DNA of 64,000 nucleotides from contig CALFUU010000057.1 of assembly GCA_937929835.1 (NCBI GenBank), positions 1 through 64,000 on the forward strand, given 5' to 3'. Numbering within the stretch: position 1 is the first letter of the stretch; the number at the start of each line of letters is the position of its first letter. The translations under genes and the position numbers were made by a program. Positions 3,750-26,000 of this stretch are shown here, in pieces. Source of the stretch: an uncultured Saprospiraceae bacterium (GTDB lineage Bacteria > Bacteroidota > Bacteroidia > Chitinophagales > Saprospiraceae). The notes beneath the pieces are model-generated. The model was not told where the DNA came from and searched no databases. It was given only the letters and a program-made list of their open reading frames with translations.

Positions 3750-4265
3750 TTATCGGATACCAAGCTCACGCTTGATCTCTTTTGTTTTATCAAATTCATC
3801 ATTGGCATAGATGAGTCCAGCGGAACCCGCCTTATCAAAGATGATATCATAGCCTTTGATCTTAGCATATTCTTCTATAGCTGTATAGACTTTGTCTTGG
3901 ATGGGACTGACGAGCTCTTGACGTCTTCGGAATAAGTCACCTTCGGGGCCAAATCTTCTTTTCTGTAGACTTCTGACTTCTGATTCTTTGGCCACTATCT
4001 CTTCCTCCCTCTCCAGCTTAACTTCTGCACTTAACAAGACCTGCTCAGCTTGAAACTTGTTGTACATACTTTTGATCTTATCGTATTCCTGAGCTATTTC
4101 TTGTCTCCATTTAGCAGAGACTTCATCAATTTGATTTTGGGCCTTTTGGTAGTCCTCAAGATTCTCTAGAATGTTATTAATGTCTACAAGTGCCACACGT
4201 TGAGCCTGAGTACTTAGAAGCGTAGCTAGTGAAAAAACTACAGCGAGGACTAATTTGTTAAGCAT
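3750..4265 (-). CDS. OmpH/Skp-family periplasmic chaperone (first copy)
   Basis: 171 residues; the signal peptide ends near residue 21 (STQAQ), and the mature chain starts RVALVDINNILENL, the usual first strand and helix of OmpH/Skp. A long coiled-coil arm spans about residues 40-125 and includes the charged segment KLEREEEIVAKESEVRSL. The closing strands are GYDIIFDKAGSAGLIYAND. Compared with the neighbouring copy (3208-3714) it is clearly paralogous but diverged, so this is an old duplication. It is the first gene of the three-gene unit ending at the terminator 2586-2617. A near-consensus -7 box (TA, three bases, TTTG) on the minus strand near 4285 could be the promoter, but this is weak. 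Confidence 0.9.
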   Translation of the reverse strand: MLNKLVLAVVFSLATLLSTQAQRVALVDINNILENLEDYQKAQNQIDEVSAKWRQEIAQEYDKIKSMYNKFQAEQVLLSAEVKLEREEEIVAKESEVRSLQKRRFGPEGDLFRRRQELVSPIQDKVYTAIEEYAKIKGYDIIFDKAGSAGLIYANDEFDKTKEIKRELGIR

Positions 4266-7314: not shown

Positions 7315-10300
7315 CTAGTCGACAAGAATCATTTTGTATTCTGCAACGCCTTGGTCTGTTGTCAACTTGGCATAGATTACTCCAGTACCATCGATCTGGT
7401 TTCTAGACAGACGCATCGTGTGATAGCCTGTCGCATACTGGTCAGTTGCCCTATGCAGCATTCGGCCATTGACATCATAGAATTCCCAGATACCCTTTCC
7501 TTGCTGGGCAATGTAGAAGTTCACTTCTGTCATTGTAATCCATGGGTTAGGTGTAACAGAAATTATCTGAGATTCCTCACTGACTCTTGTATCTAATCTA
7601 AGTTCAACCTTATCGCTGTATCCTCTGTATGCTTCTGCTGTTGTTACAGAAGAACTCAAGATAAAGGCTGTCGAAAGATCGACATCTTCTTTAGCTTTAA
7701 ATCTCAACTCGAAGATGACTTCGTCAGAGGATTTGTCTTCGGCGCTCGTGCCAGCTTGTGACATAGTCAGGATTCCTTTATCGCCATTACCTAAGTTGTA
7801 GCTAACAGGATTAGATGGTGTCTTATCTATGAGATCCATCACTTCTAGGAGGTCTTTATCCCACTCCATCGTTGTCTGCCATCCACTGACTTGCTCGTAA
7901 TTTCTAAAGTAGAATGGTACTATAACTTCTTCTCCCTTAGATACTCTAACAGCATCGTACTCCATTACAAGAGGTGCACCTTGACTTCTTGTATCGACAG
8001 CTTGGTCTTGTGCATTGAAAGCAATGTCTCCATTGACATCTCCGACTTTGACACCGACGAAGTCAATATCCATATCTGAACTCAAGCCTACAATATCATA
8101 GGTCTCTGCAATCTGCGTCAACCAAGGATTATGAGCATCAGCAAATTGATACTCTGCATCTACAAATCTCCAACTCGTATTGTCAGGGAATTCTGTGTAG
8201 ATACCCAAGATTAATTTTCTCAATTCTACAAGATCTATACCGTTGACTCCTTCGCTAGAATTAACATCAGCAGCCAATAACTGGTATGGACTATCAAGAG
8301 TTTCTATCCCTAAGATGTGTCTCTGTATGATTATCAAATCTAGTGTACTCACACCATTCATATGATCATCATTCTTGACAGGAGCTACATTATAGTCTCC
8401 GCCGATAGGCATATCAGCAAAGGCATAATTACCATTACCATCTGTCATATCAAAAGTGGTTGATGTCAACTCTACTTTTACCTCTTCTATGCTCTGCTGC
8501 GTTTCAGTCTTGATATCTCCAGACAACGTGACTTTTTGTGATGTGCTACAAGCACCCGTAGGATCTTGAACCTCCACTGTACCGACACAGAAATCGCCTA
8601 AGCCTGTCTGGTTATCGATTACATAAAGGCTTACAGGCATCACTACTGGATACGTCTCATTAGGATCACAACTCAACAGCATATTGGATTGTGTACCTGC
8701 AGCATTAAAGCTTAACGTGATACCCAATTGTGGCCCACAAGGATGGTAACTACCTCCATCTATATCAGATGCCCATAACTCCACCTCTCCGTGCGAATCG
8801 AGACTTACTGCTATTCCGTTACGACAAATAGGTATCGGTAATTTCGTATTCAAGATTGTCAAGTTCTGCATATCTGTCGTCGTGTTGCCACATCCATCAG
8901 ATACTGACCAGACAATACTATAAGTTCCTGCCGCCAAGGTTGCTGTTATGCTGCTTGACCTTAGATCTATTGGGTTACCATCGACGTCGTTGAAGATAGA
9001 AGTGCCTGTCGCATCCATCAGCTGATTATTCCAATTCAATGAACTGAATGGTGTACAATCAGGACCTACTGTTCTGCTTAAAGACAATTCTACACTTGTA
9101 CAACTTGCGTTGCTACTCATTATCGTTGTATCCGATACTGCATCCAATACTGGTGCAATATTATCCTCGATCTTAATCGTCTGCGTAAACTGGAAAGTTG
9201 CAAAAGTTCCATTACGCTGCGTACACCAATCAATGGCTGTCCAGATTCTGTTAATGACTCCACACTCCTGCGAAATAGGATCACTAGCAAAGAACTCATC
9301 TTCGAAATCATATCCTAAGAGGCTACAATTGTCAGAATTAGAGAATGAAGGCCTTGCAAAATTCTCGCCTAGATCAGGATTAAGAGCAATCGCTTCTGGT
9401 GTCAGTGTAGACGCCGTTCCACAAGCCGCATCAAAATCTAGTGGCCATACTATATCATTAACTGTAAACGGTGCTTCATTGATGATCGTAATTTCTTGCT
9501 TACAACTCATCACCACTAGTCCAAAGGATGATATGCTAAACTCTCTCGTAATAGATCCTTGACCACACTGATTTAAGTTTGGTGTAATCAACGTATCCAC
9601 TTGCTGAGTATCTCCACAATTATCATCAATAGTATAGTTTCCAAACTGGAATCCTAAGAAATTTAAGTCAAATGGTACTCTACAGTCAATCGTCACATCA
9701 TCTGGACAAGTTAAGTTAGGAATACTCTTATCCTGTACTTCAACATTGACCATACAATCACTAGTGTTACCACCGCCATCGATTGCTCTGAATACGACCA
9801 TCTGATCTACACCGACATTGGTACAACAGAATCTGACGTATGGTACGCATAGATCTGCTTCGCTTAAGTATTCAATTCCGTCTAGCTCAATACCTGCAAC
9901 ATACTGTTGTAAGCAACCATTGTCTACTCTAGATTTCAATACGTAATCAGTTCCATTTAAAGTAGTATCAACAGATAGACTTCTGAATAGAACTAGGTCC
10001 TCCATCTTGGTTGCACAAGTTGTCACTGGTCCACACTCATCCCAAGATCCATCATCAAACACGTCTGAGCTTACAATAGTATTACCATCTTGGCTGATAC
10101 TCACTACTGTTGTCTGCTCACATATGGCGATAGGTTGTGTATTGTCTCTTACTGTCACAAATGCAATACACTCTGTATTGATGTTGTAACAATCATCAGA
10201 AACCGTATACTCTAACCTATGTTTACCTGTCTCTAAGGTCGCAGTTGGTGTCACACCATCTTGCACCTCTACTAGACCAAATGGATGCTGGATCGTTACA

Positions 10301-13300
10301 TTGATACCATTGTCACAAGCATCAGTAGCTTGCGGTAATGGTAATTCAATATCACCTGCACAGTTATCATTAGTTGTCACCTCAAAGTCAGGTGGACAAA
10401 CGTCTATAACTGGTGCTTGATCGTCTATTACTTCTATCACTTGTGGGACACCACTCATCAATTCTTCTACTCCACAATTCCACTCGAATATTTCCCAAGT
10501 TCTGATAAACTTCTTGCTACAGCCTACATCTGGTAGAAGTACATCTGTAAAGGTTACAAAACCATTACAAGTAGAACCAGTCCCAGGGAACAACGGTACT
10601 ATCTGATTGTCTGGATCTTGATCCATTCCTGTTACACAAATATTAGGCGCTATCGTACCAGAGCCTGTTCCTGATCCAGTGGTTCCCATTCCAGTGAATG
10701 GCAAACCAATCTCTAAATCTAATTCTGGCATTGCCAACCACGGTGCTGGACAGCCATCTGCTGTAAGCTCAAAGTTGCCCAAGTCACTACAATTAATCGT
10801 AGCCCAAGATGGATAAGTAATATCTGCGGACTCTACTCTCTCTAAGAATATCATCTGCTCACAGAAACCAGCTAGGTTGCCATTGTTATCTCTACTTCTG
10901 TAAGTCCTTGTAATGATATGCGTGTAATCATCTGCTCTCGGATCTCCACACTCTATTGTCTCTCTCTGCTCGTCTGCCAAGAACACTTCAAATGAATTAC
11001 CTGCACAATTGTCTTCTACATTCAATAAGTCTGGAAGACACATCACTTCTAGAACCGCACAAGTTGTGATCATTGTATCTGGACATACGATCTGAGGTAC
11101 CAATTTGTATTCGACATTGATATTACCCCAACAACTGTTTTGGTTATCACACATAGGATCGTTATTAGAGATACGATATGATAAAGATCGACCTATATGA
11201 TCTGCATTCAAGACAGTCAATGGCGTACCATCTGCATTACGTATTATATTCCCATTTTCATCTAAAATTTCTACATCATAAAAACTGGAAACACACATCA
11301 ATCCAACACCACCCATTTCTGGTCTAAATTCTGCTTCACAATTTTGACCTAACGAAACATTTAGTTCAGAAATACATATAAACTCGTCATCACAGCAAGA
11401 AGCTGGGATAAAGTTATCTGTAATACATACTTCAAAATCTCCACAAGTCGTCTTATTACCTCCACAGTCAGTAAGAGTGTAGTTCACTTGAGTACAACCA
11501 ACTAAGAAATAATTTGTCATTGTAGATCCGCCAACTACTTGCTGGCTAGTACCTGTCCCATCGGGGTTTATCATATTCAGCGTAACACTTCCCGTACAAC
11601 AATTATCATCTATTAATGGATGCGTCCATGTATGTTCTGTACCAGCTTGTTGAGTGACTTCCATCTGTTGATTGATCCCAGAATATGGACCAAACTCAAA
11701 CAATTGTAATTCCCAATTATTAAGAGCTCCAGTTTCAACTCCTGCGCCCATAACGTTTAATGTCCACGTACCGGCTGAGTTCATACCTGAGAATCTATTA
11801 AAGGATTCTACCGGTGCAAACCATAAACTAGAATTAAAATCATTACAATCAGCTGATACTAGATCAACCTGACTTGTATCACTGATACTTGATAAGAAGT
11901 TGGCAGTACCATTGCATTGTCCATCTAATACTTTTGTTTGAGTACCATCTGGTGCAATCAAGTAAATAGAAACTTGACTCATATCAGGATGTGTAATAGA
12001 AAGTCCATTGATCTGTACATAATCTACAGTGAATAATTCTGAGATAATAACAGTGCTTTCATTACACGTACCTGGATCTATCGTCAAATTTTCACCTTTT
12101 TCAGATGCTTCTTGTACGATTGCTGCACAAGTAGGTGCCTGATCATCTTCTACGCTAAGCACGAATGAACACTCGCTAACACTAGCTACTTCAGATTGCA
12201 ATGATGTGCTTGTGCTATTATTAGCCATGAAATCCAATGTATTATTAAGCACACCGATATTCTGAGTACAATTTAATGTTACTTTCCAGTCATTACTTGA
12301 ATTGTGATCCCAGTTCCAAACCCTACAGACATCTCCTCCATTCAAGTTACCTGTCCAATCAGATATACTATATCCATTGACTGCGAGCTGATCAAATGTC
12401 GCATTCATATACTCAAGAGTATATGCTGCGGCTTCTAAGTAACCTATATCTGATGCAAAAGTGTAAACCATAACAGCACCTGGCTCTAGTGTTGTCCCTG
12501 CTGGCAATGTATCAGACTCTACACCATTTCCATATCTATTTATTGTTAAGCAGTTAAGATCTAGAGTTGCAGGTCCTAAGTTTGATATTTCTATCATATC
12601 TGTGCCAGCCTGCACAACTTCAGTAATCAATAATAAAGGCTGATCTTGAACTCTAAAGCTTACATTGTGATCACCAACTGTAAATTGTGTTGTGCTTTCT
12701 AAGACATCCATTCCAGAAGCCACTACAGATCCAGATGGGTCTTCTGCTTTCCATATTACTGCACTGTTATCAGGGCAGTTGTCTTCAAATTCTATTGCTA
12801 AGTCACTAGGTAGATCTTCACCACAAAGAGCAGACTGATCTTCTGGACAAGAAGTAAATTCAGGAGCTGTATGAAAATCGTTGACAATCACTTTGAATGA
12901 ACATTCTGTTGAATTACCACAAGCATCTACAGCTAAGAAAGTTAACTCCGTTGTCCCTACAGGAAATAGTCCTCCAGAGTTTAGTCCTGAATTATCTATC
13001 TGAGACACTATTACATCACTAGTACAGTTATCTGATGCAGCCAGAGGTGAGAAATTTACAAAAGCTTCGCACCAAGTCTCTGGTGCCCCAATAACAATTG
13101 GTAACCTTTCGCAATTTGTGAATTCTGGCGGTGTATTATCACCGACCGCCCATGTATGTGTGACACTTGATGTATTACCACAATCATCAGTCGCTGTAAA
13201 TACTACATCTACACTTCTAGTACCTGGACAAGTCTCAACAAAATTAGTTGGGCTATAATCATTTGTCCACGTGACACTTCCACAAACATCACTTGCCGTT

Positions 13301-16300
13301 GCGCCCGCATTGGATTCTAACCACGCATCGAACTCAGGAAAGTTTCCTCCTGGATCATTATCACATTCGTTCATAGCCATATCAGAACCCTGTACTATTA
13401 CCGGATCTGTTGTATCCTCGATAATGAAGTTTGCTTGTGTAGTTGACACATTACCACATTCGTCAGTTGCTGTAAATCTATAAACCGTCGTCTGAGTACT
13501 TCCACAACCAGAAATCACATTAAGTAAATCCCAAGACCAAGAGAAAGTACAATTATCTTCTGCAACTGCATTTCCATTGGCACTCAACCAGGCATTGAGT
13601 TGGTTAATGTTTCCGTTCCCGTCACATTCTACTATCTCATCTGATGCAGCAACACTAATTATTGGAGCAGTTAAATCTGTTTGTTGTAAATAAGTACTTT
13701 GTGAGGTACAACCATTGGTAGTATTTAAAGTATAATTTATCAAAAACTCGCCACACTCTGTAACTACAAGTGATCCTGTAAGTCCGTTACCATGATCAAC
13801 AACTCCTGGGCCAGAAAATTGGCCACCAGGTAAGTTTGCTGTGTAGGTAACTGTCTGTCCAATACACGGCTCTTCATTATCAACTGTAAAACTGGCGTCT
13901 TGTGCAGTTCCGTCTTGTACTTCTATATCTACACAGAATTGCTCAGTACAAGTCCCTGCAGGAAGACTACCACAAGCTTCGTATGCAATCGTTTCTGTGA
14001 GACAAAGCACAACTGTCCCTGTACCAGTTACCGATATTTCTCCATTTACCTCATCATTGAGAGTAGCAGGACCTGTCACCGAGTAGGCCGTCGTGACAGC
14101 ACCTTTATAGCTCGGAGAATTAGTTAAGGCTACATAAATATGATTAGATAGAGGATCGCCATCACTCCAACATACCTGATCTTGAATCTGAAAGCTAGGT
14201 TGTGGTTGTTCAGATACAACGGCATAGCTCGTCACCTCTGATGGCGTTACAACACAAGGTCCAACATAGGTCAGAGTCAAGTCATAGCACCCTGGCTCAT
14301 CATAAACTACAGCACCCCCTACTACATTGGCTAATCCGCCTCCAGAAAGTGCCCATTCTTCTGTATTACTCACGTCTATTCCTGGAAAATATTGCGACAA
14401 TGAAATGGAACCCACAGCATCAAACTGACAGGTAAAATCTAAAGTCACAGAAGGAGGTAACGTTGGTGCAACTATTACTTCGATTGTGTGACACTTCGTG
14501 TCTTGGCACAAATCATTATAATAAACAGTTGCACATAGTTCTATATTTCCAGCTAGATCAGACCCGTCAAAACTTGCTGTTCCATCATTATTATCAGTGA
14601 TGCCCAGCCCAGTCCAACTAACTACAGCAGGAGGTATAGGCAAATTTAGATTATCCAGAACTAGAGTACGAGGATCATCATTATCACATATAGGTGCTTC
14701 TGGTGCCGTCCAAGTTGCATCTGCTTCACAAGGAAATTGTATCACCTCTGTATCTTCTGGAGACTCTACTGTATTACCTTGTGGATCTGTTCCTTCTGCA
14801 TTGGCTGTATTTGAAACTCCACCTGGAATTCCTGCACCATTAGCAACATCCACGTCACTTAAAGTATAAGTCGCTGTACATGTCACAGTCTCTCCAGGAG
14901 CTAAAGTTGTCGGCAGACAAACTATTGGGCTCATTGTTCCTGTTCCTGCTATTCCATTGAATGAAGGTCCTTGATCAACAATCATCACGTTATCAATCGT
15001 TACGTTTCCAGTATTTATAACATCATATTCATATGGTATGATATCTCCGGCATCTACTATTCCGTTTCCATTATCTACAAGCTCTGAAGCACGCTTATCC
15101 ATTTCTAACATAGGATTGGACGGGAGTTCAGTAACTGCTGTATCCTCTGGAGAAGTTACAGTCGACCCACTAGGATCTATGCCACTAGCGTCAGCGGTAT
15201 TCGTTATACCACCAGGAATGCCTGCACCGTTGTCTACATCTTCTTGGGCTAGTACATAAATAGCCGAAAATGTAGTACAATCACCTGGCGCTAAATCAGA
15301 CGAGGCGGGGTCGTAAGCACCTAAAGAATTAGCACCCATCAAGCCATTAAATGATGGACCTGGATCATTAGGCACCACTCCAGTAAGCGATACATTTCCT
15401 GTATTGCAAACTTCATAGGTATATAATATTTCATCGCCCGCATCTGTCAACAGCCCATCAGAACCTTTGAGTACAGTTGGCTCAGCCGCGCTCTTGTCCA
15501 TTGACAACATCGGCGTAGCAGGAATATGTGTAATAGCAGAATCATCTGGAGAATCCACTGTCGCTCCGCTCGGATCTAATCCAGAAGCGTTAGCCGTATT
15601 GGCTACGGAATTAGGTAAAGTCGCTCCATTATCTATGTCTGTCTGACTAAGTGTATAAGTCGCTGTACAAGTCGCGACTTCACCCGGAGTCAAAGTTGTC
15701 GGTAAACAAATAATAGGAGATAAACTATTAGTACCAGGAACGCCATTAAATGTAGGTCCAGGATCATTGACTGACACATTGGAAATTGTGACGTTACCAT
15801 CATTGGTTACTGTATAGCTATAAAGTATCTCATCACCCGCATCGACAATGTTTCCATTTGCTCCAGCGCTTATGCTTGGTGCACCGGCACTCTTATCAAA
15901 GGCTAGGCTCGGCATAGCTGGAATTTCAGTCATTGCCATATCATCTGGCGAATCATGACTTATACCACTAGGGTCAGTACCTAAAGCGTTAGCAGTGTTA
16001 GCTACTCCATCAATTACACCAGCGGCATTATCTACATCAGTTTGACTTAAAATATAAGTTGCTGTACAGGTTGTAGCCTCTCCTGGCTCCAATGTTGTAA
16101 CCATACATACAATAGGACTCAGACTATTAGTACCATTTGCCCCATTGAAGGTAGGACCAGGATCATTGATTGAAATATTATCCATGGTTACATTCCCATC
16201 ATTCGTTACCACATAGGTATATAGAATTTCATCACCTGCATCGACAAAGCTAGCTTCTGCTCCATTTGCAATTGTCGGTGCAGCTGCACTTTTTTCCATT

Positions 16301-19300
16301 GCAAGAGAAGGAATAGCAGGTAGCTGAGTCTCTGCCATATCTTCTGGTGAGTCTACACCTGCACCAGAAGGATCTGTACCGCTGGCCATAGCTGTATTAG
16401 TTACACCAGCAGGTATTCCAGCGCCGTTATTAATATCTATTTGGCTTAGAATATAGGTAGCTGTGCAAATCGTCGTTTCCGTTGGTGCCAAAGAAGTCAC
16501 AATACAGACGATTGTACTCAGAGTATTTGTGCCCGAAATCCCACCAAAGGATGGACCAGGATCTGAGATTACAATATTGTCAAGAGAAACATTACCTGTG
16601 TTTTCAACTTCATAGGTATATACTATTTCGTCTCCAGCATCTACTATTCCACCGTTAGCTCCATTGACTACACTTGGTTCACCGGCAGATTTTTCCATAG
16701 CTAGCATAGGTGCATTGGCTATATCTGTCTGGGCTGTATCATCTGGTGCCGTAACGGTTCCTCCACTAGGGTCTGTACCTGAAGCGTTTGCAGTATTTAC
16801 AATGGCTCCAGGGATGCCTGCAGAATTATTGACATCAACTTGACTCAGTACATAGATCGCAGTGAATACCGCGCAGTCCCCTGGGTCAAGTATAGCTACA
16901 TTTACAGGATCAAAGGCACTTAGAGAATTTGTACCAGCTGCCCCTCCAAAAGAAGGACCATTATCCATTGGTGCTACATTAGAAAGACTGACATTTCCTG
17001 TATTACATACTTCATAAGTATATTCTATTTCGTCTCCAGCATCTGTAATCAATCCATTGACTCCATTTAAGATTGTTGGTTCAGCAGCACCTTTATCCAT
17101 AGCCAGCATTGGCATAGATGGAATATCTGTTATCGCTGTATCATCAGGTGAATCGATTGGAGAACCACTTGGGTCCATACCCGTTGCATTTGCAGTATTT
17201 GAAACTGAATTAGGAAGCGTAGCACCGTTATCAATATCGGTCTGACTTAAAGTATAGGTGGCGGTACAAGTTGCAGTTTCTCCTGGCTCAAGTGTCGTAG
17301 GCGCACAAGTTATAGGCGACAGACTGTTTGCTCCAGGCACTCCATTGAAAGACGGCCCGGGATCATTAACAGTTATATTAGATATCGACACGTTACCATC
17401 ATTGGTAACGACATAAGTATAGGTTATTTGGTCACCGGCATCCACAATACTCGAATTAGCTCCGGAGCTCGTACTCGGCATACCTGCACTTTTATCAAAA
17501 GCTAGACTAGGCATAGAAGGGATCTCCGTCACAGCTGTATCATCTGGTGAATCAACTGGTGTGCCGCTTGGATCTGTACCAGAGGCATTAGCTGTATTAG
17601 AAACACCATTAGCAACACCTGCTCCATTATCGATATCAGCCTGACTTAAAATATATGTGGCTATACAAGTAGTGGTTTCACCTGGCATCAATGTCGTTGC
17701 CAAGCAGACGATAGCACTCAAAGAATTTGTGCCATTTGCACCATTGAAAGTAGGACCTGAATCATTGACAGTAACATTATTCATCGTCACATTACCATCG
17801 TTCATAACGACATAGCTGTAGACAATCTCATCTCCAGCATCTACAAAACTTGCATCCATACCATTTGCAACAGTAGGTGCAGCTGCACTTTTATCCATCG
17901 CTAATGATGGATTATTAGGGATTTGTGTTTCGGCCATATCTTCAGGTGAGTCAACGCCTGCTCCGGTAGGATCCGTTCCGCTTGCCATCGCAGTATTAGT
18001 AACCCCTCCAGCTATTCCTGCACCATTATCGATATCTACTTGGCTCAATATATAAGTTGCTGTACAAGTTGTCGTTGCACCTGGAACTAGAGAAGTTGCC
18101 ATACATACAATTGTACTTAATGTATTTGTACCAGGACTTCCTCCAAAAGAAGGACCAGGATCAGAAATAATTATATTATCGATTGATACATTACCAGTAT
18201 TCTCCACTTCATAGGAGTATATAATTTCATCACCAGCATCTACTATCGTTGCATTAGTCCCATTTACAATCGTTGGATCTGCTGCACTTTTTTCCATAGT
18301 TAGCATAGGCGCATTGGCAATATCGGTCTGCGCCGTATCATCTGGGGCTGTCACTGCTGCCCCACTCGGATCTGTTCCAACAGCATTGGCCGTGTTCATT
18401 ATGGCACCTGGGATGCCTGCAGAATTATTGACATCATCCTGACTCAGCACGTATATAGCTGTGAATGTCGCACAATCACCAGGATTAAGTATTGCTACAT
18501 TTACTGGGCTGAAAGCACTCAAAGAACTGGTGCCAGCTACCCCTCCGAAGGATGGACCTCCATCCATTGGTGCAACATTCGAAATAGTTACATTTCCGGT
18601 GTTGCATACTTCATAAGTGTACTCTATTTCATCTCCGGCATCCGTAACCAGGCCATTAGAACCACTTAAGATAGTCGGCTCACTTGCAGTTTTATCCATC
18701 GCCAGCATAGGCATAGACGGTATATCCGTCACTGCCGTATCATCAGGAGAATCGGTTACCGTGCCTGTAGGATCAGTTCCAGATGCATTTGCAGTGTTTG
18801 TTACTGAATTTGGCATTGATGCCCCATTATCTAAATCTGCCTGACTCAATATATAAGTTGCAGTACAGGTAGCGGATTCGCCAGGTGCAAGGGTTGTCGG
18901 TATACAGGTAATAGGTGAAAGAACATTTGTCCCAGGCGTCCCATTGAAAGATGGTCCTGAGTCATTTACTGTAATATTTGACATCGATACATTACCGTCG
19001 TTGGTTACCGTATAGGTATATATGATTTCGTCTCCCGCATCCACGAAAGTACTATTAGCTCCAGAAGATGTACTCGGCATACCTGCACTTTTATCAAAGG
19101 CCAGACTAGGCATAGCTGGAATCTCCGTTGTAGCTGTATCATCTGGTGAATCGACTGGCGCTCCACTAGGATCAGTACCAGCTGCGTTTGCTGTGTTTGC
19201 AACTCCACTTGTCACACCTGCTGCATTATCTAGATCAGTTTGACTTAGTATATAAGTCGCTGTACAAGTTGTCATATCACCAGGCATCAATGTTGTTGCT

Positions 19301-22300
19301 ATACAAACAATAGCAGAAAGGCTGTTAGTTCCAGTAGCTCCATTGAAGGTAGGACCATTATCATTTATAGTTATGTTATCCATTGTGACATTTCCGTCAT
19401 TTGTCACTACGTAAGTATAAAGAATCTCATCACCAGCATCGACTGTAGTAGCCTCAGCGCCATTGACAATGGTAGGTGCTGCTGCACTTTTATCCATCGC
19501 TAATGAAGGATCACTCGGGATCTGCGTTTCTGCCGTGTCTTCTGGCGAGTCTACTCCTGCCCCCGAAGGATCAGTTCCACTTGCCATTGCTGTATTCTCA
19601 ACACCACCAGGTATTCCTGCACCGTTGTTGACATCAGTTTGACTCAATGTATAAGTAGCCATACAAATGGTTGTTGCACCTGGCGCCAATGACGTTGCCA
19701 CACAAGTGATCGCACCTAAAGCATTGGTCCCTTGGACCCCTCCAAATGACGGGCCTGGATCAGAGATTGAGACATTGTCAATTGTGACATTCCCTGTATT
19801 TTCCACTTCATAGGTATAGATGATTTCATCCCCAGCATCTACCGTGGAAGGATTACTGCCAGCTGCGATCGTTGGTGCAGCGGCACTTTTTTCCATGGCC
19901 AACATTGGCGCATTGGTTATATCTGTTTGTGCAGTATCGTCAGGTGCCGCTACAGTGCCCCCACTCGGATCTGTACCGACTGCATTGGCTGTATTCATAA
20001 TAGCACCGGGTATGCCAGCAGAGTTATTCACATCATCTTGACTTAGAATATAAGTTGCGGTAAACATAGCGCAATCCCCTGGGTCCAATGCTGCAACATT
20101 CACAGGCATAAAAGAACTAAGTGAATTAGTGCCCGCAACACCACCGAACGATGGTCCAGAATCCATCGGAGCAACATTTGATAAAGTTACATTACCTGTG
20201 TTACATACCTCATAAATGTATTCTACCTCGTCGCCTGCATCTGTAATCAGACCATCTACACCATTCAAAATTGAAGGCGATCCTGCTGTCTTATCCATCT
20301 CTAGCATTGGCATAGCTGAAATATCAGTAGTGGCCGTATCATCTGGTGAATCGACAGTAGCGCCAGTAGGATCCATCCCCGTTGCGTTAGCCGTATTGGA
20401 AGCAAGACCGTTGTTGATATCAGCCTGACTCAACACATAGGTGGCAGTACAAGTAGTGCTTTGTCCTGGATCTAGAGAACTCGTTCCACAATTAATAGGC
20501 GATAACGAATTCGTACCAGGTACGCCATTAAATGTCGGCCCAGCGTCTACTATAGTTACATTATCTATAGTTACATTACCCGTATTCTCTACAACATAAG
20601 TGTAAGTTATTACATCTCCTTCATCTACGATGCTTCCATTTGATCCTGATGAAATAGAAGGCATACTTCCGGATTTATCCATAGTTAACATTGGATCAAG
20701 TGGCACAGGAACAGTCGCAGAAGATGGATCAGATACATAAGGATTACCAAATGGGTCGTCGCCACCTGCAGTAGCCGTATTATCAGCTGTACCGCCTGCA
20801 CTATTATTAACATCGTTTTGCGAAAGCGTATAAGTTGCCATACAAGTTGTACATTCATTAACTTGCAATGTTGTAGTAGCACAAGTTATCATACCCATAA
20901 CACCGGACCCAGCTTGCCCACCAAAGGTAGGGCCAGGATCATTTATCATTAAATTAGTTACAGTCACCTGTCCATCATTACATACATCGTATGTGTACAT
21001 AATCTGATCGCCGCCATCGGTAGATGTTCCGTTATTTCCTAATGCAGAAGTAGGACCTGTCGCAGACTTAGTCATATCAAGACTCGGATCACAACCCATA
21101 ACCGACAACGTCGCTGGATCAGAATTTCCCATACAACCATTAGCATCGATTGCCGTCAACCTAAATTGATTACCGTCAAAAATCAATGGCGCCCCAAACA
21201 CTGATAAAGTATTGGTCAATGAACCTGTGAATGTTGCTCCATCAGAGGTTGGCCCCCAATTAGTTCCACCATCAGTAGAGAGTTCCCATTGATACATAAA
21301 GGGTGGCGTACCTGAAGTCGCATCAGCTGTAAAACTTGCGTCTTCGCCTACACATATGGGTCCAACATCTGCAGGTGTAGTAATTTCGGCAGGACCATGT
21401 ACTACAAAATCCATACATTCCGTGACCGGACAATTCTCATTTCCAACATTATTACAAATTGTAAATGTGCCGGCTGTGGTTGGAGCAAAAGTCGCAGAAG
21501 ATCCACCCAATGGAGTAGTTGTACCATTTACTGTCCAACTCTGAAAACAATTATTAGGTATCCAATTCATTTCTACGCTCTCCCCTACACAAATCTCATC
21601 ATCTGAAAAAGTAAATTCTGGTGTTGCTTCAGAGACATCTATAATTAGATAATCAATGAATAAACAATTACATCCTCGACACTGAGCATCAACCATAGGA
21701 CCTCCGGCTGCCTGGTTATTAAAATCACCTCCTACCGATTGTGTAAACATAGGGCAAAATGGATCAGCAGTACAAGCACCAGCATCACCATCAGACTGGG
21801 GACCAGCAGGCAAAAAACAAAAATCACCGACTGAATTTCCTCCGAGTATTCCATTAGTGTAAAAACCAAATTGCATAACTCCATCCGCAGCTTGATCGTT
21901 AAAAGCACAAGGTGAGAAAGAAACGATTGTACAAATAGGATCAGCTGTACAGTCAAAAGCTGTACTATTTTGCGGTGCACCATCTATAACTCCTATCTCA
22001 TTTCCGAGTTCGTCATAGACAAATACACGCTCAGATACCTGACCGAAATCACCTCTTCTGCAGACTCGAAATTGTACATCATTACAAATAGGTAACGATG
22101 ATACGATAGCGCTTACATCTACATTTACCCGCCACTCAGGATCTGAACCTAAGCCACCGTTAGCACCATCACCTTCCACACACATTTCATTTGTCTGGGC
22201 TACATATGTTGTTCCAGAAGCCAAATTCAATGTTATATCTACAGTAGCATCAGTAACGCCATATGCGTCCCCCGCTGTACCAACCGCAGGAAAGATCTGA

Positions 22301-22440
22301 GCTTGGGCTGTATTAAATTGGAGTAATAAAACTCCAACCCAAAAAGATAGCAACAAAGGTTTTCTTGCTGTTTTAGAAAATAGAATCACCGAGAAATTGT
22401 TATGTTTTTCTTGGTCTTGACTTAGTACACCGTAATTCAT
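7315..22440 (-). CDS. Giant T9SS surface protein with 16 DUF7507-like repeats, HYR/Ig domains, lamin-tail-like and P-domains, dockerin and cohesin-like modules
   Basis: About 5041 residues from the ATG at 22440. The frame extends to a TTG at 22527, but the ATG gives a proper signal peptide (cleavage after about residue 47, NTAQA). Residues about 48-447: two Ig/PKD-like domains. Residues 448-2569: sixteen repeats of about 133 residues, each with a core like YTYEVENTGNVTIDNV, a CTATYTLSQ strand and a DPSG linker. After that come several HYR/Ig-like domains, with a lamin-tail-like insertion at about 3268-3390 and a proprotein-convertase P-domain at about 3460-3590 (ending AGTWTLNV...LNNWEL). Residues about 3680-4620: the core shared with three downstream paralogues, including GTGSGTGSGT near 3915. 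Residues about 4634-4690: Cna-B/carboxypeptidase-regulatory-like. Residues 4690-4750: dockerin-like. Residues about 4828-4945: cohesin-like. Residues about 4951-5041: type A sorting domain, ending YKMILVD. Probably a cell-surface adhesin. Confidence 0.93.
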   Translation of the reverse strand: MNYGVLSQDQEKHNNFSVILFSKTARKPLLLSFWVGVLLLQFNTAQAQIFPAVGTAGDAYGVTDATVDITLNLASGTTYVAQTNEMCVEGDGANGGLGSDPEWRVNVDVSAIVSSLPICNDVQFRVCRRGDFGQVSERVFVYDELGNEIGVIDGAPQNSTAFDCTADPICTIVSFSPCAFNDQAADGVMQFGFYTNGILGGNSVGDFCFLPAGPQSDGDAGACTADPFCPMFTQSVGGDFNNQAAGGPMVDAQCRGCNCLFIDYLIIDVSEATPEFTFSDDEICVGESVEMNWIPNNCFQSWTVNGTTTPLGGSSATFAPTTAGTFTICNNVGNENCPVTECMDFVVHGPAEITTPADVGPICVGEDASFTADATSGTPPFMYQWELSTDGGTNWGPTSDGATFTGSLTNTLSVFGAPLIFDGNQFRLTAIDANGCMGNSDPATLSVMGCDPSLDMTKSATGPTSALGNNGTSTDGGDQIMYTYDVCNDGQVTVTNLMINDPGPTFGGQAGSGVMGMITCATTTLQVNECTTCMATYTLSQNDVNNSAGGTADNTATAGGDDPFGNPYVSDPSSATVPVPLDPMLTMDKSGSMPSISSGSNGSIVDEGDVITYTYVVENTGNVTIDNVTIVDAGPTFNGVPGTNSLSPINCGTSSLDPGQSTTCTATYVLSQADINNGLASNTANATGMDPTGATVDSPDDTATTDISAMPMLEMDKTAGSPSILNGVDGLITDAGDEVEYIYEVCNTGNVTLSNVAPMDSGPSFGGVAGTNSLSSFMPVNVAALDPGDCAMFTATYILSQDDVNNSAGIPGAIMNTANAVGTDPSGGTVAAPDDTAQTDITNAPMLAMEKSAAAPTIAAGSNPSTVDAGDEIIYTYEVENTGNVTIDNVSISDPGPSFGGVQGTNALGAITCVATSLAPGATTICMATYTLSQTDVNNGAGIPGGVENTAMASGTDPSGAGVDSPEDTAETQIPSDPSLAMDKSAAAPTIVNGAEATTVDAGDEILYTYVVTNDGNVTMDNITINDNGPTFNGATGTNSLSAIVCIATTLMPGDMTTCTATYILSQTDLDNAAGVTSGVANTANAAGTDPSGAPVDSPDDTATTEIPAMPSLAFDKSAGMPSTSSGANSTFVDAGDEIIYTYTVTNDGNVSMSNITVNDSGPSFNGTPGTNVLSPITCIPTTLAPGESATCTATYILSQADLDNGASMPNSVTNTANASGTDPTGTVTDSPDDTAVTDIPSMPMLAMDKTASEPTILSGSNGLVTDAGDEIEYTYEVCNTGNVTISNVAPMDGGPSFGGVAGTSSLSAFSPVNVAILNPGDCATFTAIYVLSQDDVNNSAGIPGAIMNTANAVGTDPSGAAVTAPDDTAQTDIANAPMLTMEKSAADPTIVNGTNATIVDAGDEIIYSYEVENTGNVSIDNIIISDPGPSFGGSPGTNTLSTIVCMATSLVPGATTTCTATYILSQVDIDNGAGIAGGVTNTAMASGTDPTGAGVDSPEDMAETQIPNNPSLAMDKSAAAPTVANGMDASFVDAGDEIVYSYVVMNDGNVTMNNVTVNDSGPTFNGANGTNSLSAIVCLATTLMPGETTTCIATYILSQADIDNGAGVANGVSNTANASGTDPSGTPVDSPDDTAVTEIPSMPSLAFDKSAGMPSTSSGANSSIVDAGDQITYTYVVTNDGNVSISNITVNDPGPSFNGVPGANSLSPITCAPTTLEPGETATCTATYTLSQTDIDNGATLPNSVSNTANATGMDPSGSPIDSPDDTAITDIPSMPMLAMDKGAAEPTILNGVNGLITDAGDEIEYTYEVCNTGNVSLSNVAPMDNGPSFGGAAGTNSLSAFDPVNVAILDPGDCAVFTAIYVLSQVDVNNSAGIPGAIVNTANASGTDPSGGTVTAPDDTAQTDIANAPMLAMEKSAGEPSVVNGANGGIVDAGDEIVYTYEVENTGNVSLDNIVISDPGPSFGGISGTNTLSTIVCIVTSLAPTETTICTATYILSQIDINNGAGIPAGVTNTAMASGTDPSGAGVDSPEDMAETQLPAIPSLAMEKSAAAPTIANGAEASFVDAGDEILYTYVVTNDGNVTMDNISINDPGPTFNGANGTNSLSPIVCMVTTLEPGEATTCTATYILSQTDVDNAAGVIDGVANTANALGTDPSGISHDSPDDMAMTEIPAMPSLAFDKSAGAPSISAGANGNIVDAGDEILYSYTVTNDGNVTISNVSVNDPGPTFNGVPGTNSLSPIICLPTTLTPGEVATCTATYTLSQTDIDNGATLPNSVANTANASGLDPSGATVDSPDDSAITHIPATPMLSMDKSAAEPTVLKGSDGLLTDAGDEILYTYEVCNTGNVSLTGVVPNDPGPSFNGLMGANSLGAYDPASSDLAPGDCTTFSAIYVLAQEDVDNGAGIPGGITNTADASGIDPSGSTVTSPEDTAVTELPSNPMLEMDKRASELVDNGNGIVDAGDIIPYEYDVINTGNVTIDNVMIVDQGPSFNGIAGTGTMSPIVCLPTTLAPGETVTCTATYTLSDVDVANGAGIPGGVSNTANAEGTDPQGNTVESPEDTEVIQFPCEADATWTAPEAPICDNDDPRTLVLDNLNLPIPPAVVSWTGLGITDNNDGTASFDGSDLAGNIELCATVYYNDLCQDTKCHTIEVIVAPTLPPSVTLDFTCQFDAVGSISLSQYFPGIDVSNTEEWALSGGGLANVVGGAVVYDEPGCYDLTLTYVGPCVVTPSEVTSYAVVSEQPQPSFQIQDQVCWSDGDPLSNHIYVALTNSPSYKGAVTTAYSVTGPATLNDEVNGEISVTGTGTVVLCLTETIAYEACGSLPAGTCTEQFCVDIEVQDGTAQDASFTVDNEEPCIGQTVTYTANLPGGQFSGPGVVDHGNGLTGSLVVTECGEFLINYTLNTTNGCTSQSTYLQQTDLTAPIISVAASDEIVECDGNGNINQLNAWLSANGNAVAEDNCTFSWSWDLLNVISGCGSTQTTVYRFTATDECGNVSTTQANFIIEDTTDPVIVQGSDMAMNECDNDPGGNFPEFDAWLESNAGATASDVCGSVTWTNDYSPTNFVETCPGTRSVDVVFTATDDCGNTSSVTHTWAVGDNTPPEFTNCERLPIVIGAPETWCEAFVNFSPLAASDNCTSDVIVSQIDNSGLNSGGLFPVGTTELTFLAVDACGNSTECSFKVIVNDFHTAPEFTSCPEDQSALCGEDLPSDLAIEFEDNCPDNSAVIWKAEDPSGSVVASGMDVLESTTQFTVGDHNVSFRVQDQPLLLITEVVQAGTDMIEISNLGPATLDLNCLTINRYGNGVESDTLPAGTTLEPGAVMVYTFASDIGYLEAAAYTLEYMNATFDQLAVNGYSISDWTGNLNGGDVCRVWNWDHNSSNDWKVTLNCTQNIGVLNNTLDFMANNSTSTSLQSEVASVSECSFVLSVEDDQAPTCAAIVQEASEKGENLTIDPGTCNESTVIISELFTVDYVQINGLSITHPDMSQVSIYLIAPDGTQTKVLDGQCNGTANFLSSISDTSQVDLVSADCNDFNSSLWFAPVESFNRFSGMNSAGTWTLNVMGAGVETGALNNWELQLFEFGPYSGINQQMEVTQQAGTEHTWTHPLIDDNCCTGSVTLNMINPDGTGTSQQVVGGSTMTNYFLVGCTQVNYTLTDCGGNKTTCGDFEVCITDNFIPASCCDDEFICISELNVSLGQNCEAEFRPEMGGVGLMCVSSFYDVEILDENGNIIRNADGTPLTVLNADHIGRSLSYRISNNDPMCDNQNSCWGNINVEYKLVPQIVCPDTMITTCAVLEVMCLPDLLNVEDNCAGNSFEVFLADEQRETIECGDPRADDYTHIITRTYRSRDNNGNLAGFCEQMIFLERVESADITYPSWATINCSDLGNFELTADGCPAPWLAMPELDLEIGLPFTGMGTTGSGTGSGTIAPNICVTGMDQDPDNQIVPLFPGTGSTCNGFVTFTDVLLPDVGCSKKFIRTWEIFEWNCGVEELMSGVPQVIEVIDDQAPVIDVCPPDFEVTTNDNCAGDIELPLPQATDACDNGINVTIQHPFGLVEVQDGVTPTATLETGKHRLEYTVSDDCYNINTECIAFVTVRDNTQPIAICEQTTVVSISQDGNTIVSSDVFDDGSWDECGPVTTCATKMEDLVLFRSLSVDTTLNGTDYVLKSRVDNGCLQQYVAGIELDGIEYLSEADLCVPYVRFCCTNVGVDQMVVFRAIDGGGNTSDCMVNVEVQDKSIPNLTCPDDVTIDCRVPFDLNFLGFQFGNYTIDDNCGDTQQVDTLITPNLNQCGQGSITREFSISSFGLVVMSCKQEITIINEAPFTVNDIVWPLDFDAACGTASTLTPEAIALNPDLGENFARPSFSNSDNCSLLGYDFEDEFFASDPISQECGVINRIWTAIDWCTQRNGTFATFQFTQTIKIEDNIAPVLDAVSDTTIMSSNASCTSVELSLSRTVGPDCTPFSSLNWNNQLMDATGTSIFNDVDGNPIDLRSSSITATLAAGTYSIVWSVSDGCGNTTTDMQNLTILNTKLPIPICRNGIAVSLDSHGEVELWASDIDGGSYHPCGPQLGITLSFNAAGTQSNMLLSCDPNETYPVVMPVSLYVIDNQTGLGDFCVGTVEVQDPTGACSTSQKVTLSGDIKTETQQSIEEVKVELTSTTFDMTDGNGNYAFADMPIGGDYNVAPVKNDDHMNGVSTLDLIIIQRHILGIETLDSPYQLLAADVNSSEGVNGIDLVELRKLILGIYTEFPDNTSWRFVDAEYQFADAHNPWLTQIAETYDIVGLSSDMDIDFVGVKVGDVNGDIAFNAQDQAVDTRSQGAPLVMEYDAVRVSKGEEVIVPFYFRNYEQVSGWQTTMEWDKDLLEVMDLIDKTPSNPVSYNLGNGDKGILTMSQAGTSAEDKSSDEVIFELRFKAKEDVDLSTAFILSSSVTTAEAYRGYSDKVELRLDTRVSEESQIISVTPNPWITMTEVNFYIAQQGKGIWEFYDVNGRMLHRATDQYATGYHTMRLSRNQIDGTGVIYAKLTTDQGVAEYKMILVD
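14740..21098 (-). repeat. Array of sixteen DUF7507-like repeats (about 133 codons each)
   Basis: Sixteen consecutive domains, each starting with a phrase like P-[MS]-L-A-[MF]-[DE]-K-S and containing DAGDEI, N[TD]GNV, GPSFGG/GPTFNG, CTATY.LSQ and SPDDTA. Units 3-14 fall into four alternating subtypes (MLxMDKxA..YEVCNTGN; MLAMEKSA..YEVENTGN; SLAMDKSA..NDGNVTM; SLAFDKSA..NDGNVS), and unit 15 is again of the first subtype. Units 1, 2 and 16 are outliers at the edges. Confidence 0.92.
15514..20310 (-). repeat. Higher-order repeat: three tandem copies of a 1599-bp four-domain block
   Basis: The first-subtype unit begins with a proline codon at 20310, 18711, 17112 and 15513 (first base on the minus strand). 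These positions are 1599 bp apart three times running, which is 533 codons per four domains. Each block has the same subtype order. The fourth occurrence at 15513 starts an incomplete block. Confidence 0.92.
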
Positions 22441-22703
22441 GTTTAGCACTTTATTAATATTCACGTATATGCTTGATATGAGATACCACAATGCCATTAG
22501 AGCTCTGTTTATTACAGAGTGCTGCAATCATTGCAATACTGTTTACTGTTGGGCAGTAAATCGGTGTAGGGAAGGCGCTTTGGGAAAAGCTATGTTATTA
22601 CTGTGTTTGGCATAAAAGTCAGCCACATAGGATGTGACTTAATATCTAAGATGGATGGTTATTCCATTTTAAATATCGTCGTCCAAGAAATACTTAGACA
22701 AAA

Positions 22704-23063: not shown

Positions 23064-26000
23064 TTAATCTAACAAAATCATTTTCTTCTCAGTAGTCATA
23101 CCTCCAGAGATCAGCTTTACGTACAGCATACCCGCAGCTGGAAATTCCTCTCTCCATAGTCTTATGGTATGGCTACCGACCTCATATTCATCAGACTTAA
23201 CCAACACTAACCGGCCTGACACATCATAGAACTCTAGTCTTGCTCTACCAGCTTTATCAAGTGTGATTTCAATATCAGTTACTGTCTTCCAAGGATTAGG
23301 CTTGATAAAATCTATCTGTAGACCTGTAGCCTTAGCTTCGAGCTCCAGATTTACAATTTGATCAAAAGACCTATATCCTTCACTAACTGTTATCGATGAA
23401 TTCAACTCAATCAACTTGCTATAAGGACTTACGCCTGTTGCCTCTACAATAAGTTCAAATAATACCGTCGATTCATCAAATTCTTCCAACTCAACACTTC
23501 CATAGCTAACTGTAAGTGAATTACTTACATCATCTAAGTGGGAGACTTTATTGCCGATATCCAAAGCCCTCGACTCAACACCCAAAAGCTTAGCGCCTGT
23601 CCCCATAAACGTACCTTGCCAGCCACTAACCTGCTCATAATTACTTGCATAGATAGGTATAGACAAGACTTCTCCCTTACTTGCAGAGCCTTCATCATAT
23701 CTAAACACTAATGGCCATCTCGAACTTCTAGCATCAATAACAGCATCTAGATGGTTGGCTTCTACATCACCATTGATATCGCCTACCTTGACTCCTATAA
23801 AATCGATTTCCATATCTGTATCCAAGATTGATATGGTGTAGAGCTCTGGAAATACAGATACCCAAGGATTTTCTATCTGAGCAAATTCAAAGGCATCATC
23901 TATAAATCTCCAACTCTCGTTATCAGGGAAGTCATCATAGATACCTAAGATTAACTTACGCAACTCTATTAAGTCTACCCCATCGACTTGCGAACTTCTA
24001 TCAATGTCTGCTGCGATGTATTGATAAGGAGAATCAAATTTCTTTACCCCTAATATGTGCCGTTGTATTAAAATCAAATCAAGCGTACTTATTCCATTCT
24101 TAGGATCATCGTTCTTTGATGGGATGACCTGATAAGCACCTCCACTAGGCATATCACCGAAAGCATAATTACCCTCCTCATCCGTATAAGATACTGGCAT
24201 ATTGACTGACATCTCAACAAGTACAGCCTCTATAGTCTGATAAGACTCTGTGCTGATGTTACCGACTATAGACACATTCTGTTGAGAACAATTACCATTT
24301 CGATCTTCTACATTGATATAACCCCAGCAACTATTCCCACATTGATTGGTAATTCTGAATCGAACTCTTTGGCCTATGTGTTCAGCTGTAATAATATTAT
24401 CAGCAATATGATTCCCAGCCTCATCAATAAGAGTGAGCTGATAATAGTCATCATAGGCACAAGCAGGATCAAGTCCAGCTATCAAGTTTGCAGGTGTAAT
24501 CAAGGCTTCACAATCTGTACTACTCAGAGACAAATTGACCTCAAAGACACAAGCCAACTGACACTCAAAAACACAATCTGGTATAAAATCCTGTGTGATG
24601 ACAATTATCTCTGGATCATGATCATCCTCGTCTCCCTTATCATTTAGTTGATCATCTAGCGGAATGCCATCATTATCAGGATCATTATCAGGTGTCGAGT
24701 CTGCATCAGTTCTGTTATCCCCAATTAGGTCTGTAGCTGAGCCTATTTCACTGTAATTAGTATAGTTTTCTTGATCAGTACCGACAAAATTAATTTCCGC
24801 AAAGAAGCTTACAGTAAGTGATTCTCCAGGAATGATAATCTCATCTATCGTCGTCGAATAGCTAGAGCCTGTACGTGTCCATCCTGGATTAAGTCCCATA
24901 CCCGACAACCCTGCAGGCAAATGATCCCACACTACAATATTGGTAGCTGGGACAGTTCCTTGATTATGAACTGCAATAGCATATTCCAAAATATCACCTG
25001 GCGCATACATAGGCTCTGTCACCAATTGCTTAATCAAGGCTAGGTCAAATATCTCCAAGCTTTCGAAGTCACTATCATCTTCGTCACCATTGTTATTATC
25101 TGTGTCGTCATTTTCCATAGTACCATCATTAGATGGGTCCGCATCTGCAACTGAATCTACATCAGTACCAGTAACGTCATTACCATCTCGATCCTCCATA
25201 CTTTCTACCTCAGCCGTGTTGGTATATGCACCAGCAGAAAGGCAAGGAGCTAATTCTAAAGTGATGTATAACGTATCAGTAGACTGACCTAATAGTGGCC
25301 CAGGAAAGACACGAGAAGCAATGTGTCTCACATTATCATAACTCCAACCTACATTATTATCCGCCAGATACTCAAACCCACAAGGAATGAAATCATTGAC
25401 CTTGACATTATATAGATCGAATATCCCCTGATTAACTAACTCTATAGCAAAGGTGACTTGCTGACCATAAGTATACTCACCTGATGTAACCGTTGTTTTC
25501 CTAAGCGCTATGTCCACAACCTGAACAAGTTCTTCATCATAATCATCTTCTCCACCATTGTTACTATCATCAAAGCTGTTATCGTTATCTCCTCTGTTAT
25601 CTCCGTCATTATCAGAATCGGAATCAGGCATAGAATCTGCATCGTCCATTGACCGATCGCCACCATTCTCATCTGCTGCACTGCCTATCTCTGCTGCATT
25701 GGTATAAGCATCAAGACCCCCACTCGCCAATTGGAGTATCCCTACAAAGGGCACTGCCAGTGTATCCCCTATGTCAACAACCTGATCCACCAGGTAGGTA
25801 TACACCGGTGCGAAGGCGGCATCCCACCCAGGATTATCAACGGGGTCAAAGGCAAAACCTGCTGGCAAATATTCATTAATCAAAATATTTGTCGAAGGCA
25901 CATTTCCATGATTAACAATAGAGATGGTAAAAACTACCTTATCTCCTAGTGCCTGTGGTGTACTCAGACTCGTGGTCTTTATCAGGGCCAAATCAAATAT

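Follow-up and report, generated by a model that had tools for sequence, protein, structure and literature searches.

The window analysed here, a stretch of 64,000 nucleotides from an uncultured Saprospiraceae bacterium, encodes a giant protein in whose array of 16 domains one domain type recurs every 1599 bp, which raises the question whether this period reflects recent amplification, selection on the length of a stalk, a functional unit of four domains, or the way in which the array once grew.

The giant ORF and its four-domain blocks

The ORF (5070 aa, 7315..22527, on the minus strand, as are all features below) is listed with a TTG start, its true start probably being a downstream ATG, and has a hydrophobic, signal-like N-terminus. 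It contains 16 Ig-like DUF7507 (CLIPPER_2) domains: the PF24346 HMM matches 14 stretches in 14701–20310 (927.6 bits against a gathering cut-off of 27) and two stretches in 20311–22527 (131.1 bits), which are the first two domains. DUF7507 domains are described as intramolecular-isopeptide stalk domains in PMC12617251. Elsewhere in the protein, matches above the cut-off are limited to HYR, P-domain, and cohesin, with LTD, carboxypeptidase-regulatory-like, and dockerin matches below it, and this domain-model search recognized no adhesive tip domain. The TIGR04183 T9SS-like C-terminal tail scores 20.8 bits, below the cut-off of 23. A part of the C-terminal region used as a query matched 142 out of 150 genomes of the family, including its own, and was discarded as too general to define orthologues.

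The array begins with X00 (20695..21087), which carries both of the cysteine pairs discussed below, and X01 (20311..20694), followed by three complete blocks of 533 aa (15514–20310), each consisting of domains A, B, C, and D: block 1 (18712..20310; A 19909–20310, B 19510–19908, C 19111–19509, D 18712–19110), block 2 (17113..18711; A 18310–18711, B 17911–18309, C 17512–17910, D 17113–17511), and block 3 (15514..17112; A 16711–17112, B 16312–16710, C 15913–16311, D 15514–15912). In a block, A has 134 aa, and B, C, and D have 133 aa each. The array ends with X14 (15115..15513), a lone A-type domain of 133 aa, one codon shorter than A1–A3, and the terminal domain X15 (14722..15114), which pairs with the last domain, Y17, of a homologue from the same genus (67% identity).

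The preliminary description claimed that four subtypes recur in fixed order and proposed to compare each domain with its fourth and with its next neighbour. This comparison yields a distinct peak: over X02–X14, the mean protein identity at lags 1 to 5 is 60.0, 55.9, 59.8, 78.4, and 59.4%, respectively, and 75.4% at lag 8. The same period is seen in the uncut protein, where, over X02–X13, the self-match peaks at 533 aa (0.80) among 1250 offsets tried and rises no higher than 0.53 at offsets other than multiples of 533 aa. When the order of all 16 domains was shuffled, the lag-4 value was reached in none of 100,000 trials, and with the lag left free (2–12) the observed maximum was reached in seven out of 2000.

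A proline codon had been taken to mark the block starts. The A-type domains indeed start at 20310, 18711, 17112, and 15513, with a constant spacing of exactly 1599 bp and motifs PMLEMDK, PMLAMDK, PMLAMDK, and PMLSMDK; the proline itself, however, is common to all 16 domains, and hence a block is marked by its A-type sequence. Position 15513 keeps the spacing but starts no fourth block, only X14 followed by X15. Likewise, the statement that block length has been held without indels is true of the three blocks, whose eight lag-4 pairs align without gaps, but not of X14 with its lost codon.

An AF2 model of one block, built in line with the earlier suggestion to model four consecutive domains, consists of four beta-sandwich domains (mean pLDDT 82.6, pTM 0.56), and its Foldseek/VIA-align matches include tandem Ig-like adhesin extender chains, e.g., 4p99 and 6xi3. 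Given this model and these matches, the 16 Ig-like domains provide the repeated stalk domains expected of a fibrillar adhesin. A sequence relative in PDB, an exochitinase (9buf, E 0.002), covers part of one domain and was set aside. The CLIPPER crystal structure 9IFR, mentioned in the available part of PMC12617251, is not among the structural matches listed, which excludes nothing.

Predicted bond-forming residues and the age of the blocks

We counted the predicted bond-forming residues in 34 domains, comprising the window array and that of its closest relative, the same-genus homologue (genome G009). All 34 have Lys, Asp, and Asn in alignment columns 7, 50, and 109, respectively. We read these columns as the likely counterparts of Lys72/Asp112/Asn152 of the example in PMC12617251, an assignment made by motif order, not by structural superposition. 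The cysteine pair 36/81 alone occurs in 12 domains, the pair 70/84 alone in 20, both in two, and half a pair in none; three domains (X15, Y17, Y01) contain one further Cys. Each domain is probably locked by one disulfide and a predicted Lys–Asn isopeptide bond. The rarer pair has a spacing of four domains in the window array, every block having the class order I-II-II-II, and 17 alignment columns are fixed within each subtype and differ between subtypes.

The blocks are old. At fourfold sites, identity at lag 4 is 33.8% (172/509), compared to 31.5% by chance and 29–36% at other lags, so these sites are random between the blocks and no recent amplification or homogenization has taken place. Codon positions 1/2/3 are identical in 84/90/46% of cases (1066 codons, eight lag-4 pairs inside blocks), DNA identity at lag 4 is about 72%, in keeping with the preliminary description of the blocks as diverged, and exact direct repeats in the array reach at most 29 bp, which makes assembler collapse or mis-spacing unlikely. 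Taken together with the synonymous saturation, this repeat length indicates that exchange between blocks ceased long ago. Indels are rare, one per 310 corrected substitutions in nine lag-4 pairs, whereas comparison with the homologue outside the array gives 38 per 1205 (P about 0.0015, conditional binomial test).

These observations bear on the explanation of the array as a recent amplification, a product of concerted evolution, a length-variable array of the Periscope type, or an assembly artefact. Tandem domains within a large surface-type protein would suit it, and near-identical repeats do occur in other arrays of the order, with lag-1 identity of 93–94% in genome G207 and 90% in G251; since neighbours are nearly identical in several DUF7507 arrays, unlike neighbours are no general requirement of the family. 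Nevertheless, recent expansion or gene conversion is ruled out by the random fourfold sites, and with the lag-4 DNA divergence and the short longest repeat considered as well, we find this explanation very improbable.

Related arrays and the neighbouring gene

The homologue (locus L021 of G009), which belongs to a sister species, has another period. Its block comprises eight domains (1056 aa) in an array of at least 18 DUF7507 domains, with 73.9% identity at lag 8 (seven pairs) versus 50–55% at other lags, a maximum reached in none of 2000 shuffles; within its eight, the lag-4 signal is marginal (permutation fraction 0.048). Indels are similarly rare, four per 464 corrected substitutions in nine lag-8 pairs. 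As the homologue is poor in indels with a block of 1056 aa, low indel tolerance looks like a property of DUF7507 domains and not of a 1599-bp unit, and selection for an exact stalk length, suggested in the preliminary description, has to be abandoned, block size and domain number both differing in the homologue.

In the tree of domains, A1–A3 group together (99/93) and have as their sister group the two A copies of the homologue itself (94/84), with X14 branching outside both; B1–B3 are also a clade (98/92), while C and D do not resolve as clades in this tree with the homologue. The A and B clades, along with the lag-4 peak, support the proposal that the array grew by duplication of four-domain blocks.

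The lag scan covered the window and 24 further DUF7507 loci, which were best hits and not a random sample. Twelve arrays have at least seven domains, and a clear peak is seen in three, namely, the window at lag 4, G009 at lag 8, and genome G080 at lags 4 and 8 (29/2000 shuffles); hence, a lag peak is no general rule of DUF7507 arrays. Array L057 of G207 passes the shuffle test (21/2000), having no real peak with 92–94% identity at lags 1–8, and neither the G031 array (lags 3, 4, 7; 137/2000) nor the two G007 arrays (lag 3; 166 and 358/2000) are significant. The G080 array (L061), from another genus and more distant, is a four-block array with A-like domains free of cysteines, and thus a four-block can do without the disulfide swap. 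Its domains b, c, d show no in-register match to B, C, D; only the A-like domain groups clearly, and a full A–B–C–D register was therefore rejected.

An unexpected observation is that the neighbouring gene (23064–40940) contains an array of 19 SprB repeats (29178..33596) with a four-unit higher-order repeat of its own, and also ten DUF11 domains (24591..29177) with a two-unit one (identity 51.9% at lag 2 versus 33.8% at lag 1). Three other genomes of the genus have SprB arrays with this same order of four phases, for which a one-residue deletion serves as the marker. The N-terminal 2000 residues of the SprB proteins of these three species are unrelated to those of the neighbouring gene; in two of the three, the DUF11 array that follows the SprB repeats is shared as well, and descent from one stalk therefore accounts for some of the agreement in phase. 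A family-wide test covered 30 loci (all listed lengths up to 3.1 kb) and the window, with 22 arrays of 8–40 units: P is about 0.002 for the window, 0.048 for one other (lag 3), and above 0.05 for the rest, most pieces being too short to show period four well. A general rule of the SprB period is not borne out by this set.

Origin of the four-domain order

We favour an old duplication of four-domain blocks in a stalk, whose subtypes have been kept by purifying selection, so that order and not length is conserved (probability roughly 0.7). The domains are ordinary, and it is their architecture that is unusual; most of the mechanism is what we infer. The DUF7507 array would be the stalk-forming part of a giant protein, probably secreted by the T9SS and displayed on the surface of this Saprospiraceae bacterium. 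After the split from the lineage of the same-genus relative, an in-frame tandem duplication of A–B–C–D (533 aa) may have produced three blocks, inserted ahead of the older A-type domain and the terminal domain, long enough ago for synonymous sites between blocks to have become random. Purifying selection would then have kept the sequence, cysteine pair, and length of each subtype. Unit size would be a matter of lineage, four in the window and eight in the relative, the conserved trait being the alternation of unlike neighbours in fixed order rather than exact total length, and selection for unlike neighbours may be the reason why the blocks were kept. Points that speak against this explanation are the lack of C and D clades in the tree, the lack of a recognized adhesive tip, the T9SS tail score below its cut-off, the block model's pTM of 0.56, the cysteine-free A-like domains of G080, and the near-identical neighbours in several other DUF7507 arrays.

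A possible, though less likely, explanation is that a chance unequal exchange of four domains started the pattern, and later in-register exchange perpetuated it without selection on block size. It agrees with the variation of block size among relatives and with the lack of pattern in most other DUF7507 arrays examined, but the protein sequences have retained their subtypes long after exchange ended. Rather unlikely, in our opinion, is a titin-like functional unit, in which a superhelical turn or binding period makes selection hold exact length and order. The gapless pairs inside blocks, the cysteine class order, the period four in G080, and the same phase order of the unrelated SprB family in four genomes of the genus point to it, whereas the homologue has period eight with only a marginal lag-4 signal, an array of different total length, and a low indel rate at lag 8 as well, G080 is out of register in three domains, and the shared SprB phase may come from a homologous stalk. 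The broader proposal that one four-domain phase governs the stalks of several giant surface proteins of this genus, DUF7507 and SprB alike, with ordered four-type registers outlasting synonymous saturation because the unit itself serves in mechanics, folding, or binding, is speculative and improbable, but if true, this phase would be a bacterial counterpart of titin super-repeats. As to the four-domain structural repeat of the preliminary description, the disulfide-class switch at every fourth domain and the SprB four-unit repeat keep it alive without settling it.

Returning to the old block duplication, its parts can be compared with known systems, each as far as the available portion of the cited source goes. 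CLIPPER_2 systems share with the window array the Pfam family DUF7507, tandem arrays, long surface proteins, and the Lys–Asp–Asn triad; the portion of PMC12617251 concerned mentions tandem and alternating DUF11/DUF7507 arrays, and contains neither a four-domain higher-order repeat nor exclusive cysteine-pair classes. The giant Mobiluncus adhesin, with 51 cross-linked Ig-like domains, is likewise a giant chain, whose cross-links include isopeptide, ester, and disulfide bonds, and no higher-order block repeat is described in that part of its report (PMC10619420). Among domain-repeat proteins, nebulin has a seven-domain duplication unit, and such repeats, detected by the same type of lag statistic, resemble ours in that domain n is similar to n+k due to joint duplication of k domains; that survey examined 24 proteomes, of which seven were bacterial, and the window array represents a bacterial case with saturated synonymous sites (PMC1553488). 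In the titin A-band, Ig-like domains are arranged in ordered super-repeats and are more alike between than within them (PMC10665226), and the window array also has ordered subtypes at a fixed lag; titin super-repeats may reflect thick-filament periodicity, as its authors reason, whereas the nearest relative of the window array differs in unit size.

Ordered subtypes with two exclusive disulfide placements have here outlived the complete loss of synonymous similarity. With a relative of different block size and an adjoining gene of unrelated domains but the same period, the locus offers a natural test of whether the block-wise growth of multi-domain proteins stems from a need of adjacent domains to differ in order to fold. 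Periscope proteins are also bacterial surface proteins with tandem structured domains, but their repeats are nearly identical in DNA and vary in number (PMC8201768, as far as available), whereas DNA identity between the blocks studied here is about 72%. Discussions of repeat stalks in bacteria often present them as near-identical and length-variable; the window array, diverged and apparently locked, is the opposite.

Four-domain repeat of the DUF7507 array

The array is carried by a giant ORF (7315–22527, minus strand; 5070 aa if begun at the listed TTG, though the true start is more likely an ATG further on), which has a signal-like hydrophobic stretch at its N-terminus, 16 Pfam DUF7507 domains (X00–X15, spanning 21087 to 14722, minus strand), matches to HYR, P-domain, and cohesin beyond them, lamin-tail and dockerin matches scoring under their cut-offs, and a T9SS-like C-terminal tail with a score slightly below the cut-off. 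On the same stretch, two tandem OmpH/Skp-like genes (3208–3714 and 3750–4265, minus strand) adjoin a gene (4482–6983) whose product ends in a T9SS tail of the CHU_C type.

According to the preliminary description, four domain types (here A, B, C, and D) recur in blocks whose starts are exactly 1599 bp apart. Indeed, A-type domains start at 20310, 18711, 17112, and 15513 with exactly this spacing, and domain lengths of 134, 133, 133, and 133 aa occur three times over, the lone fourth A domain, X14, having 133 aa. The mean protein identity of domains n and n+4 (lag 4) is 78.4% (nine pairs), vs. 60.0, 55.9, and 59.8% at lags 1, 2, and 3, so that the expected peak at a lag of four is seen; the observed lag-4 value was matched by none of 100,000 domain-order shuffles, and by seven out of 2000 when the lag was left free. 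The self-alignment proposed as a check, made without cutting the array into domains, agrees, the offset of 533 aa ranking first.

The blocks had also been described as diverged in nucleotide sequence. At lag 4, 172 out of 509 fourfold-degenerate sites (33.8%) are identical, close to the 31.5% expected by chance from codon usage, and other lags yield 29–36%; identity at codon positions 1, 2, and 3 is 84, 90, and 46%, respectively (n = 1066 codons). Since the silent sites have become random under a preserved protein sequence, the blocks are old, with homogenisation long absent. An assembly artefact is disfavoured, since the longest exact repeat within the array is only 29 bp.

Relatives and origin of the blocks

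A search with the array matched eight out of 60 genomes, that is, its own and seven out of 59 others, including two (G009 and G007) out of 13 other genomes of the same genus. The G009 homologue (locus L021) contains at least 18 DUF7507 domains (Y domains), a lower bound because the open frame spans the whole contig and the gene is truncated at both ends; its post-array region aligns with that of the window at 57% identity. The period of this array is eight domains (1056 aa), with mean identity of 73.9% at lag 8 (seven pairs) vs. 50–55% at others.

On the tree of 34 domains from both species, A1–A3 form a clade (99/93) next to G009's own two A copies, and B1–B3 form another (98/92), C and D being without resolved clades. 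Together with the lag-4 peak, the A and B clades support the proposed growth of the array by duplication of four-domain blocks. Since each species' own A copies group together, the present block copies, with unit sizes differing between the species, probably postdate the split of the two lineages; concerted evolution acting before the silent sites diverged would be expected to produce the same tree. The X14/X15 end of the array is older, as X15 groups with Y17, the final domain of the G009 array (99/92), and X14 branches outside the remaining A copies of both species.

The claim that block length has been held within the array is supported, whereas the suggested selection for one exact length of the stalk is not. 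For the window, we counted one indel per 310 corrected substitutions at lag 4; G009 has four per 464 (lag 8), and the region outside the array has 38 per 1205 (P = 0.0015 and 0.0038, respectively, against the latter rate). The comparison is rough in that pairs have branches in common and the non-array region includes long loops. In both species each domain type keeps its length, but block length and domain number differ between them.

A third such array, from another genus of the same family (G080), has a period of four (69% at lag 4 and 70% at lag 8; 29 out of 2000 shuffles) and is younger, as its fourfold sites are 59–68% identical. Its A-like domain clusters with domains carrying the class I cysteine pair (100/95); its three other domain types show no correspondence to the B-C-D register of the window. 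The opposite architecture also occurs among DUF7507 arrays: at L057 and L058 (G207) and L059 (G251), neighbouring DUF7507 domains are 90–94% identical.

SprB and DUF11 arrays of the neighbouring gene

The next gene upstream (23064–40940, minus strand) encodes a giant protein of 5958 aa with SprB and DUF11 arrays. Its 19 SprB repeats (29178–33596, minus strand) are 41.6, 41.8, and 40.4% identical at lags 4, 8, and 12 vs. 34–36% elsewhere (42 out of 5000 shuffles), the peaks at lags 4 and 8 being about equal. The ten DUF11 domains (24591–29177, minus strand) show 51.9% at lag 2 vs. 33.8% at lag 1 (37 out of 5000 shuffles); they are of two alternating types, the fifth and seventh being 92% identical.

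Among nine SprB arrays of at least eight units, collected from the window and 12 same-genus stretches (best hits, hence a non-random sample), four have a lag-4 peak (window, G004, G012, and G007) and five do not. The shuffle test is also passed by four of the latter, whose best lag is 2 or 3; this mostly reflects decay of similarity with distance and, in G008, a small lag-3 peak (57 vs. 53–54%). The G012 array (L133, contig C7; 23 units) is a cleaner case than the DUF7507 array itself: unit lengths of 78, 75, 76, and 76 recur about five times with no indel, identity at lag 4 is 73% vs. about 40%, and fourfold sites are 36–41% identical at every lag.

The phase order is shared with L132 (G004), L133, and L134 (G007): with the window's degenerate first unit omitted, phase-to-phase matching was the best of 24 pairings in four out of six species pairs and the second in two. 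A loop is one residue shorter in 18 out of 18 phase-3 units and in one out of 61 others, namely, that degenerate first unit, although this marker was chosen after the alignment had been seen.

Beyond the SprB array, residues 1–2070 of the window's SprB protein have no match in the G004 and G012 proteins; in that of G007, whose frame stops within the array, their sole match is a piece of 147 columns (26%). DUF11-type domains of G004 and G012 match, at about 27–45% and in several registers, both the stretch immediately preceding the SprB array and the DUF11 array that follows it, and thus the SprB-then-DUF11 order is common to two out of three relatives. These proteins may be orthologues whose N-termini were replaced, or they may have in common a stalk that was exchanged. 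The two scanned stretches of G001 (L129 and L130, contig C5) contain a homologue of the N-terminal 2200 aa of the window's SprB protein (39% identity) and no SprB array of at least eight units, which makes an exchange of the stalk portion possible.

Predicted cross-links and the four-domain unit

Lys, Asp, and Asn occupy fixed columns in all 34 domains of the window and G009, the residues and their order being those of the isopeptide bond predicted for DUF7507 (PMC12617251, excerpt). Cysteine pairs occur at columns 36/81 (class I) in 12 domains, at 70/84 (class II) in 20, and at both in two, with no half pairs; Y01 and the terminal domains X15 and Y17 have one extra Cys. In the window, pair 36/81 alone marks precisely the four A domains, yielding the block pattern I-II-II-II. 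The AF2 model of one block (pLDDT 82.6, pTM 0.56) places the Lys, Asp, and Asn of its domain A on three different strands. The fold is ordinary, since structure searches matched Ig-like, integrin, and cadherin domain chains as well as extenders of bacterial adhesins.

The array probably forms a stalk locked by predicted isopeptide and disulfide bonds and enlarged through old duplications of four-domain units. Duplication of blocks rather than single domains would keep neighbours unlike, and adjacent domains in large multidomain proteins are usually less than 50% identical, which is thought to limit misfolding (PMC8201768, excerpt); as neighbours in the window are 51–69% identical, exceeding this figure, such avoidance is only a possible reason. 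It is also possible that four domains constitute a functional unit: the four-unit SprB result in the neighbouring gene favours this, and the eight-domain period of G009, the nearest relative, weakens it.

In a literature collection that lacks most subscription papers, no such Bacteroidota array was seen by title or abstract start among the matches listed on domain repeats, DUF7507, adhesins, and SprB, a weak negative. Duplication of domain blocks is known in general (PMC1553488, excerpt) and in titin (PMC10665226, excerpt).
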